Positions 830-3,897 of a DNA stretch of 64,000 bases are shown piece by piece. A model generated the notes under the pieces. The model had not been told where the DNA came from and ran no database searches. It saw only the letters and a list, made by a program, of their open reading frames with translations. Source of the stretch: an uncultured Granulosicoccaceae bacterium (GTDB taxonomy: Bacteria; Pseudomonadota; Gammaproteobacteria; Granulosicoccales; Granulosicoccaceae); the NCBI GenBank assembly GCA_937920585.1, contig CAKZSB010000046.1, positions 1 to 64,000 of the forward strand. Reading direction: 5' to 3'. Positions within the stretch are counted from its first letter, which is position 1; every line of letters begins with the position of its first letter. A program made the position numbers and the translations under genes.

Positions 830-1801
830 CTACACGACACCGGCGCGAAACAGGGAATGCATATTGAGTGCGCCGGCGATTGATCCGTCTGCCTCGACAA
901 CGGGCAACGCCATGATCTTTTGCTGCTCCATCAGGTTGAGCGCGTCGACTGCCATGCGATCGGGTTCGATGGTTTGGCCGCCGCGGGTCATGATTTCGCC
1001 GATGCGGGTTTCGTAGATATTGATGTCGTGATCCAGCGAGCGTCGCAGATCGCCATCGGTGAAAACGCCGATATATTTGCGGTTTTCGTCGCCAATCAGC
1101 AGCATGCCGAGTTGCCGGGCGCTCATTTCAACCAGCGCCTCCTTGACCACAACATCGGCGCTCACGAGCGGTATATCGGTGCCGCTGACCATGACGTCAG
1201 AGACGCGCAGCAGTAGCCGCTTGCCGAGCGATCCACCGGGATGCGAGAAGGCGAAATCCTCTTCGTTGAAACCACGCGTTTGTAATACCGCCACTGCAAG
1301 TGCATCGCCCATTGCCAGTGTGGCGGTGGTGCTGGAGGTGGGCGCCAGGCCGAGCGGGCAGGCTTCGTGTGCTACTGCGACGTTCAGGTTGACGGTGGCG
1401 GTGCGCGCAAGTGTCGAGGCTGGCTTGCCGGTGATTGAGATCATCTGGCAACCGATGCGCTGAAGCACTGGCAGTATCACCATCAGCTCGGCCGTTTCGC
1501 CGCTGTGTGAAATGGCGATGACGATATCTTCCGGCCGGATCATGCCCAGATCACCGTGCGATGCCTCGCCGGGATGGACGAAGAACGCGGCGGTGCCGGT
1601 GCTCGCGAGTGTGGCGGCAATTTTGCCGGCAATGTGGCCTGATTTTCCGATCCCGCAAACCACCACGCGCCCGCTGCACGACAACAGCAAATCGCAGGCG
1701 CGCAGGAAATCGTCGTCGATTCGCTGACGCAGGGCCAATATGGCATTGGCCTCGGTGTTCAGCACATCAATCGCGAGCTGCTGTGTTTGTTCTCTATTCA
1801 A
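830..1801 (-). CDS. kdsD: D-arabinose 5-phosphate isomerase KdsD
   Basis: A 323-residue enzyme that interconverts ribulose 5-phosphate and arabinose 5-phosphate, the first committed step of Kdo synthesis. An N-terminal SIS sugar-isomerase domain carries GIGKSGH at residues 50-56, and two CBS domains fill roughly residues 205-323 (the repeats begin near VSDVMVSG and IGEIMTRG). The reading frame opens with TTG at 1801. The N-terminus aligns well in length with known KdsD proteins and no better start lies nearby, so a TTG start is likely. It is the first gene of kdsD-kdsC-lptC; no convincing promoter was seen in the 109 bases before it. Confidence 0.94.
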   Translation of the reverse strand: MNREQTQQLAIDVLNTEANAILALRQRIDDDFLRACDLLLSCSGRVVVCGIGKSGHIAGKIAATLASTGTAAFFVHPGEASHGDLGMIRPEDIVIAISHSGETAELMVILPVLQRIGCQMISITGKPASTLARTATVNLNVAVAHEACPLGLAPTSSTTATLAMGDALAVAVLQTRGFNEEDFAFSHPGGSLGKRLLLRVSDVMVSGTDIPLVSADVVVKEALVEMSARQLGMLLIGDENRKYIGVFTDGDLRRSLDHDINIYETRIGEIMTRGGQTIEPDRMAVDALNLMEQQKIMALPVVEADGSIAGALNMHSLFRAGVV

Positions 1802-1910: not shown

Positions 1911-2843
1911 CTAATCGAGTTGATCGAGTTGATCGAGTTGGTCTATTTCGTCCAGCTCATCGGGGGCATCGGTCTCTTCGAGCTCGTCCATTCGATCGAT
2001 CTCGTCGATTTCATCCGGCTGGTCCAATTGATCGAGTTCGTCGAGTTCGTCGAGTTCGTCGAGTTCATCGAGTTGGTCGCGCCTGGTCTGGCTGTCGATC
2101 GACTGGCTGGTTCGCTGCCTGGCGGCGGGTGGTGTTGCGATGCGCCCGTCGTTGATCAGTCGGCGGCGGCGCTTGACATAGCTGTCGCGAACAAAGGTGT
2201 AGGGGTCCAGCGCGGCGGTTTCCAGAATAGACGAGGCGGCCAGAAATCTTGCTCGCGCGCTGATCACATTCAGTGTGACCAGTTTGCTTCGCGCGGAGCT
2301 GTTGAGATCCATGTTGTTCAAAGCGGCCAGCTCGCTGTCGGCCAGCAGACCTGCGGTGCCACGCAATGTGCGGGAACCGAAAAACGGCAACACGATATAG
2401 GGCCCTTCCGGCACGCCCCAGACGCCGAGGGTCTGGCCGAAATCCTCCTCGTGGCGATCGAGTTTGAGCGCGGTGGCGACATCGAGCAGGCCTCCCAGGC
2501 CGATCGTGGAATTGACTGCCACGCGCGCCGTGTCGTGCAGCCCCTGTTCGAACTTGCCCTGCAGGAACACATTGGCTGCAACGGTGACATCGGCCAGATT
2601 GCCAAAGAAATTGCTCACGCCCTGGCGCACAAACCCGGGAGTGAGGCCTTTGTATCCGCGTGCCAAAGGCTGCAGCGCGAAGCGATCGAGCCTGTCGTTG
2701 AAGCTGTAAACCGTTCTATTGACCTTTTCGAACGGGTCGTTGATTGGCTTGCTTACGTCCACTACACGTGCCGCACAGGCACTGCAGGCGAGTGCCATGA
2801 ACATGAGTAATGTCCATTGTTTGATTGCTGTCGTTGATCTCAT
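1911..2843 (-). CDS. mlaA: Phospholipid-asymmetry lipoprotein MlaA (VacJ) with acidic repeat tail
   Basis: MlaA is an outer-membrane lipoprotein that removes misplaced phospholipids from the outer leaflet and hands them to periplasmic MlaC. A lipoprotein signal (hydrophobic TLLMFMALACSAC, two candidate lipid-modified cysteines) is followed by the family core: NDPFEKVNRTVYSFND, GVSNFFGNL, VNSTIGLGGLLDVA and the GVPEGPYIVLPFFG segment. After the core come about 55 extra residues of D-E-L and D-Q-L repeats to the stop codon, which is not usual for the family. ATG at 2843 gives a normal-length signal peptide; an in-frame GTG at 2864 would add seven residues. It diverges from mlaC. Confidence 0.93.
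   Translation of the reverse strand: MRSTTAIKQWTLLMFMALACSACAARVVDVSKPINDPFEKVNRTVYSFNDRLDRFALQPLARGYKGLTPGFVRQGVSNFFGNLADVTVAANVFLQGKFEQGLHDTARVAVNSTIGLGGLLDVATALKLDRHEEDFGQTLGVWGVPEGPYIVLPFFGSRTLRGTAGLLADSELAALNNMDLNSSARSKLVTLNVISARARFLAASSILETAALDPYTFVRDSYVKRRRRLINDGRIATPPAARQRTSQSIDSQTRRDQLDELDELDELDELDQLDQPDEIDEIDRMDELEETDAPDELDEIDQLDQLDQLD
1914..2078 (-). repeat. 9-bp tandem repeats encoding the (D-E/Q-L)n tail of MlaA
   Basis: On the plus strand, ttgatcgag-type units recur near 1914-1940 and ttcgtcgag-type units near 2035-2074, with degenerate copies between them. Each 9-base unit encodes three residues (DEL, DQL or DEI). The encoded 55 residues contain 29 Asp or Glu and almost no basic residues. 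Because the unit is a multiple of three, gain or loss of copies would change tail length without shifting the frame. Confidence 0.9.
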
Positions 2844-2981
2844 GCCAGTGTTTGGGCAGTGCACCTGTTTCGTCTATGAATACTAGCACCCGAATGGTGT
2901 ACGGGCAGCCAACCCGTGGCTGAAGTTGTTGCAGATGCAACCGTGTCACAGTGTGAGCGATCACGCGAGTTTATTGCCGAC

Positions 2982-3309: not shown

Positions 3310-3897
3310 ATGTTCAGGAAATTATTTGCGGTTGTAATGGCGATGGCTTTGCTGCCGACCGTTGCTCTGGCTGGCCATCCGGCAGAGGATCTGGTCAAGC
3401 GGGTGACGTCAGAGATCATTGAGACGCTGGAAAAGCCGCAAGCCAAGGTGGACAAGAAATTCGTTCAAACCGCGCTTGAGCGCGATGTGGTACCGCACAT
3501 TGACTTCACCCTGATGACCAAGCTCGCAGTCGGCAAACACTGGACGACCGCGACTGCCGAGCAAAAGAAATCGCTGGTTGCAGAGTTCCAGGATTTGCTG
3601 GTAAACACCTACACGCGCGCTTTAAACGAGTACTCGGGGCAATCGCTTGAGTTTTTGCCGTTCAAGCCGGAGGAGCGCGAAGACCGGGCGGTGGTCAGTT
3701 CGATCTTTAAAGACAGCGGTGGAGTGAAGTTTCCGGTCGACTACAAGCTGCGCAACAAGGACGCCTGGCTGATTTACGATATCGAAGTCGAGAATATCAG
3801 CCTGGTGCTTGGTTACCGTTCGGACTTTTCAAGCCAGATCGCGAAAGGCGGGCTCGATGGTCTGATCCGGACATTGCGCGAGAAAAACGGCGCCTGA
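3310..3897 (+). CDS. mlaC: Periplasmic phospholipid-transport protein MlaC (Ttg2D)
   Basis: A 195-residue protein of the MlaC/Tgt2 family, which carries phospholipids across the periplasm between MlaA and the MlaFEDB inner-membrane complex. A Sec signal peptide (residues 1-21, cleavage after ALA) precedes the mature region with family-like segments VVPHIDFTLMTKLAVGKHW and NTYTRALNEYSGQ. The ATG at 3310 is chosen because AGGGG sits about 8 bases upstream and because it begins the signal peptide. In many gammaproteobacteria mlaC follows mlaFED and precedes mlaB; here it stands alone beside mlaA, and the ABC components must be elsewhere. Confidence 0.94.
   Translation: MFRKLFAVVMAMALLPTVALAGHPAEDLVKRVTSEIIETLEKPQAKVDKKFVQTALERDVVPHIDFTLMTKLAVGKHWTTATAEQKKSLVAEFQDLLVNTYTRALNEYSGQSLEFLPFKPEEREDRAVVSSIFKDSGGVKFPVDYKLRNKDAWLIYDIEVENISLVLGYRSDFSSQIAKGGLDGLIRTLREKNGA

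Follow-up and report, generated by a model that had tools for sequence, protein, structure and literature searches.

We analysed a window of 64,000 nucleotides, the whole stretch of DNA considered here, from an uncultured Granulosicoccaceae bacterium. It contains an mlaA gene whose product ends in an array of D-E/Q-L/I triplets, flanked by conserved neighbours (Table 1); kdsC also lies downstream of mlaA. Residues 42-234 of the 317-residue ORF match the Pfam MlaA family (E 1e-70), with a PF04333 profile score of 237.5 bits (cut-off, 25). By sequence, the nearest solved relatives are the MlaA proteins of 8i8r and 5nuo. The NCBIfam equivalog NF011672 returned 144.6 bits, below its cut-off of 375, and we therefore make no claim of equivalence with E. 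coli MlaA. The N-terminus carries a lipoprotein signal with a conserved cysteine: counted from the likely ATG, Cys23 is almost invariant across a 44-row MlaA alignment, and the lipobox, as assessed by eye, is not of the textbook type. A structure model derived from a 27-row alignment had a mean pLDDT of 65.9 and 44-56 in the tail blocks; the tail is modelled as low-confidence coil, and as such the model does not choose between the readings weighed below. Of note, a plus-strand ORF of 325 aa (1833-2810) runs antisense to mlaA across the repeat. We rejected it as a gene on account of this antisense position; it is probably a shadow ORF, of the kind that annotation pipelines may pick up.

Table 1. 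Features at the mlaA locus of the window
Feature	Coordinates	Strand	Basis or remark
mlaA ORF	1911-2864	-	317 aa; mechanical start GTG 2864
mlaA from its likely start	ATG 2843	-	310 residues
C-terminal array of D-E/Q-L/I triplets, with the mlaA stop codon	1911..2078	-	translation; Tandem Repeats Finder
Linker of 28 residues joining MlaA core and array	2079..2162	-	translation; low-confidence coil in the model
MlaA core domain, PF04333	2163..2741	-	E 9.4e-71 / 1.3e-70; PDB relatives 8i8r, 5nuo
Lipoprotein-like N-terminus from the likely ATG	2742..2843	-	translation; Cys23 of the ATG form in the alignment
kdsD, directly downstream of mlaA, conserved family neighbour	830..1801	-	SIS and CBS domains; synteny
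mlaC, divergent from mlaA, proposed binding partner	3310..3897	+	PF05494, E 1.6e-48

Read on the reverse strand of 1911-2078, the array translates as DQL DEL DEL DEL DEL DQL DQP DEI DEI DRM DEL EET DAP DEL DEI DQL DQL DQL D, followed by the stop codon. The 55 residues, 29 of them acidic, that the initial annotation had counted were recovered on re-translation. Its description of near-identical 9-bp copies holds for two short blocks delimited by Tandem Repeats Finder (1914-1940, 3.0 copies, 100%; 2032-2079, 5.3 copies, 92%), the remaining units having diverged. With 18 units, interrupted by Q, R, A, P and T, and near-identical copies in those two blocks only, the window array is a worn, degenerate version of the array found across the family; slippage is thus well supported in the family and weakly visible in the window. 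In-register D-x-hydrophobic triplets number 15 in the window tail, as compared with a maximum of eight among 100,000 tail shuffles. In the 5.34-Mb window genome, a four-unit degenerate DNA pattern gave five overlapping matches, all in mlaA (reversed control, 0), and we rejected a genome-wide satellite because the matches are confined to this gene. An artefact of frame or assembly was rejected as well, since the array recurs in independent assemblies, including the one single-contig genome (G401), where the tail (L326) takes a related form with higher-order repeats. Besides, the window genome encodes two further MlaA paralogs with acidic tails of 31 and 48 residues, ending in DEIDELDTLD and DEIDLLDELD, and a single MlaC.

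Across Granulosicoccaceae, MlaA was present in 51 of 57 relatives searched, and a second search was positive in ten of 13 genomes, among them one (G031) already in the first set. From the 61 family loci read, 56 complete tails were kept, four tails that run off their contigs (L013, L054, L057, L061) and one with an N gap (L032) being dropped; the comparison set comprised 102 tails of class members outside the family, including E. coli, drawn from the higher-ranked matches. At least three consecutive DEL triplets occurred in 36 of the 56 family tails (at least five in 28; longest run, 20) and in one of the 102 outside the family. The family shares with other PF04333 lipoproteins the core domain, the lipoprotein-like start and the mlaC neighbour, yet differs from those elsewhere in the class in the length of its tails (median 70.5 aa, range 31-126, n=56, vs 27 aa, n=102) and in their net charge (median -25.5 vs -5). 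The view that a normal MlaA core is followed here by an unusual extension is hence borne out.

A search of 369 genomes drawn from across the class turned up the five-unit DNA pattern in three, two of which are Granulosicoccaceae; within the family, 33 of 48 genomes had the four-unit pattern. Among the matches listed, named contigs in the genome collection placed arrays in Granulosicoccaceae, and family four-unit matches, where checkable, were MlaA tails or contig ends beside kdsD. For the contig-end matches in two genomes (G004 and G020), kdsD comes next, and we therefore take them as the far halves of arrays broken by the assembler. In the scan of collection contigs, again among the matches listed, 28 Granulosicoccaceae frames were MlaA by search, and the remaining three comprised a truncated tail, a tail with a gap and an array at a contig end next to kdsD; 87 of 120 frames with DEL or DEF runs were neither MlaA nor from Granulosicoccaceae. 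Assembly breaks or N gaps fall inside the DEL array at several loci (L013, L054/L363, L057/L129, L032). Gene models of mlaA in metagenome-assembled genomes may consequently be truncated or frameshifted, and our unit counts are minima, the more so as short-read assemblies possibly shorten arrays.

In-frame coding tandem repeats that grow by slipped-strand mispairing are a known class. The DEL array resembles them in its near-identical neighbours, its length steps of 9 bp and the assembly breaks within it. Unlike slipped-strand on/off switches, however, it preserves the reading frame, and on/off switching is not expected. In the 31 perfect runs of at least five units, 156 of 270 adjacent 9-mers were identical, as opposed to 111.0 (s.d. 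4.9) after permutation, and this excess vanished at a lag of four units, the signature of local duplication. Higher-order repeats of 15 residues (45 bp) were seen in three tails (L053, L059, L329). Tail lengths were unequal in nine of ten pairs with cores at least 85% identical, and the closest pair (core identity 95%) had DEL runs of 13 and 10. The triplet-preserving length variation anticipated from the window is thereby supported between species, each species being represented by one genome. In the core tree, long runs sit on separate branches, including different paralog clades beside array-less relatives (e.g. L030 and L048; L047; L017 and L029); expansion, or else loss, must therefore have happened repeatedly.

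What such a tail might do is suggested by work on E. coli. According to two reports (PMC10245069, PMC10719372), the acidic C-terminal tail of E. coli MlaA, residues 227-251, is an MlaC-binding element, pictured as a bait on a flexible linker. There, removal of the last nine residues, charge reversal at D243/D244 or D247/E251 and changes at L245 or I248 each abolished or strongly reduced the interaction with MlaC; exchanging the charges of MlaA D243/D244 with those of the basic MlaC pair brought it back. MlaA-MlaC recognition in E. coli is weak, the isolated tail (residues 227-251, fused to GFP) binding MlaC at a KD of 57 uM. The last nine residues of E. coli MlaA, DDL-KDI-DSE, comprise two triplets in the rhythm of the array, and D-[DE]-h-x-x-h-[DE] occurs in them once; each DEL-DEL-D stretch supplies one further copy. 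This motif is present in the window tail and altogether in 55 of the 56 complete family tails (9.1 in shuffles). Outside the family, where tails of fewer than 12 residues were excluded and 94 of 102 kept, it was found in eight of 94 (shuffle mean 1.8), two of the eight being E. coli and the DEL-bearing outsider. The acidic tail is thus general and the exact motif is not, and we rejected the motif as a class-wide MlaA signature.

The E. coli tail and the family array are alike in lying at the C-terminus after a flexible linker, in their acidity, in their spaced aliphatic residues and in their fit to the motif. They differ in that E. coli has one copy in a 29-residue tail with spacing 4-3 (I241/L245/I248), whereas family arrays run to as many as 20 units, spaced at 3, and differ in unit number between species. 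By analogy with E. coli (PMC10245069, PMC10719372), MlaC, which the initial annotation had named as one possible partner of the tail, is a plausible ligand. Beyond that annotation, the arrays prove to be family-wide, and the ordinary MlaA tail is itself already a short acidic docking element. The array is best read as a novel form of an already known MlaA element, with a function that we infer. Among open-licence papers, judged by title and the start of the abstract, we found no description of repeat-expanded MlaA tails.

On the side of the partner, MlaC was compared in 30 of 48 family matches and in 29 matches outside the family. Its median net charge is -5 in the family vs +3 elsewhere, and 0 vs +2 for residues 64-112. 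We accordingly rejected the idea that extra positive charge co-evolved on MlaC, as family MlaC is the less basic one. At K-12 position 83, Lys or Arg is found in 29 of 30 family loci; the window, the sole exception, has Thr there and keeps Lys at position 90. Of the two MlaC residues facing the acidic tail, both are basic at 19 of 30 loci in the family and at 19 of 29 elsewhere; the window has one of the two. As regards numbering, PMC10719372 gives the basic pair facing the acidic tail as K84/R90; in the K-12 MlaC record (L332 3257-3892), residue 84 is Ser and the Lys is residue 83, with R90 in agreement.

The gene order of the pathway differs within the family. A single contig carries both mlaA and mlaC in 29 of 30 family genomes; the two genes are divergent in 27, and the matches to their products are 656 bp apart in the window. 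The gap between the genes measures 2.5-3.2 kb in 22 genomes of other family genera and 364-850 bp in seven genomes of the window's genus and its sister group (g4), which leaves no room for mlaFED in the latter two. In one genome (G024; L111), three ORFs between mlaA and mlaC were read as mlaF, mlaE and mlaD, mlaD by search and the others by eye. All ten genomes searched from other family genera contained single-domain MlaD frames of 154-190 aa; the MCE search returned no clear single-domain MlaD in 14 genomes of the window's genus and g4. In 12 of these 14, MCE matches fell solely in long frames of 557-650 aa; one (G033) gave no MCE match, and another (G029) had two short MCE frames side by side, of 160 and 241 aa and of ambiguous class, in addition to a long one. 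The window genome, an assembly 91.6% complete, contains MlaC and, by the MCE search, a three-MCE frame of 571 aa only and no single-domain MlaD. MlaD has likely been lost in the window's lineage, a loss that the incompleteness of the assemblies keeps short of proof.

Since the family unit repeats the pattern of the residues that dock MlaC in E. coli, the array suggests itself as a multiplied docking element. Our preferred reading, to which we assign a probability of roughly 0.52, is that the array is an iterated, slippage-grown MlaC docking motif that would act as a multivalent bait. In E. coli, a single short acidic amphipathic C-terminal segment on a flexible linker catches apo-MlaC and holds it against the MlaA channel. 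In Granulosicoccaceae, tandem duplications of a unit of 9 bp, sometimes of 18 or 45 bp, would have turned such a segment into a run of overlapping, near-equivalent putative docking sites, each of the form D-[DE]-h-x-x-h-[DE]. Such an array would raise the local concentration and the reach of the bait, and MlaC could rebind or slide along it. We infer MlaC binding by the array and a gain in avidity or reach from additional units. In favour of this reading are the resemblance to the E. coli docking residues, the prevalence of the motif in family tails, the fixed residues of the three phases, the excess of silent over replacement differences, the confinement of family arrays to MlaA (among the matches listed) and the linkage of mlaA with mlaC. 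Counting against it, family MlaC is less basic, opposite to what simple charge co-evolution would give; the window has Thr at K-12 position 83 of MlaC; the exact motif is rare in tails outside the family; array-less MlaA paralogs persist; and a spacing of 3 departs from the 4-3 of E. coli. A more far-reaching version, which we put forward only tentatively and consider rather doubtful, makes the array a polyvalent ladder on which MlaC docks, the strength of capture depending on how many overlapping copies of a known protein-docking motif slippage has left in the receptor. In the window's lineage, with no clear single-domain MlaD in our search and two to three MlaA paralogs per single MlaC, avidity borne by the tail, and not MlaD, may then decide the whereabouts of MlaC.

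Alternatively, the docking unit could be the extreme C-terminal motif only, as in E. coli, and the array a length-tuned spacer or tether whose copy number matters through reach. The bait on a flexible linker pictured for E. coli (PMC10245069, PMC10719372) would accord with this, as would the low-confidence coil modelled for the window tail, and several tails do finish with a distinct non-repeat segment after the array, e.g. PPDELDLLDDLD or DELDLLDELD. Other tails, however, stop inside the array or in unrelated residues, and a mere spacer would have no need of fixed residues. When the 42 arrays (583 in-register units) are counted without a per-unit residue filter, D fills phase 1 in 549 units as against 9 with E; in phase 2, E occurs 469 times and D 11 times; and L occupies phase 3 in 512 units. 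We regard this alternative as unlikely, even if it fares best among the competitors of the multivalent bait.

Less probable still is the idea that 9-bp slippage, at a C-terminus that tolerates it, is the main origin of an array that is neutral or slightly harmful and adds no function to that of a short acidic tail. The homogeneity of the units, with identical neighbours beyond the permuted expectation, the variable lengths and the 45-bp higher-order repeats are what such a process would leave behind, and DEL or DEF runs of other organisms lie mostly in frames without an MlaA match (the above 87 of 120 among the matches listed). Yet the units have diverged silently with their residues conserved. 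Between adjacent units of 38 arrays of at least six units, codon differences were synonymous in 382 cases and replacements in 109 (expected synonymous, 21-28%), a ratio inflated by the unit pattern used to delimit the arrays, which admits only selected residues. Asp codons take T or C freely at the third base (GAT and GAC are both abundant) and hardly ever A or G; the asymmetry between D and E likewise speaks against neutrality. Besides, the family arrays are located in MlaA (among the matches listed), and long ones occur on several separate branches of the MlaA tree, different paralog clades included.

Since Asp and Glu are almost never interchanged and the third residue is kept hydrophobic, negative charge alone is insufficient to account for the array. 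The excess of silent over replacement divergence, the D/E fidelity and the hydrophobic third position thus point to neither bare slippage nor a loose polyanion, and the cation-binding polyanion proposed in the initial annotation finds no favour here. That the tail is an acidic ligand of divalent cations, porins or envelope polymers and not of MlaC strikes us as very improbable: the net charge of -10 to -46 over the 56 family tails and an MlaC that is not more basic would suit it, yet a tail that merely soaked up cations would allow D and E to replace each other and do without a hydrophobic third residue, and OmpC, in PMC10719372, is still pulled down by E. coli tail variants, which also tells against the porin binding suggested earlier. 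Either way, the array is a real, family-specific and repeatedly expanded C-terminal feature that is constrained at the protein level.

To our knowledge, what determines the strength and direction of lipid hand-over in the Mla pathway is still debated. With putative docking units ranging from one to about twenty on an unchanged core, these proteins offer natural variants for testing whether valency or reach of the tail limits lipid transport. If the multivalent bait holds true, the array would be an unusual case in which short-repeat growth acts on a docking motif instead of an on/off switch.

Some further observations concern loci outside the window. Our observations on the mlaA-mlaC gap and on MlaD also concern two other contigs of the window genome (G000:C374, i.e. 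L362, and G000:C469). The sole MlaE match of this genome (L362 1-1319) is preceded by a GAF plus cyclase-domain protein and followed by an MlaF-like ORF that is cut by the contig end; the latter matched the NCBIfam MlaF model with an E of 5e-6, far under the cut-off, and its P-loop is apparently degenerate in the alignment. Outside the family, a DEL run of five units closes one MlaA that sits on a long tree branch (L272 440-1249; G091, family code f57). An MlaA from Desulfobacteraceae (L165 7199-7999) has about 13 DEF triplets between N-terminus and core, and so at the other end of the protein from the family array; this run is possibly of independent origin.
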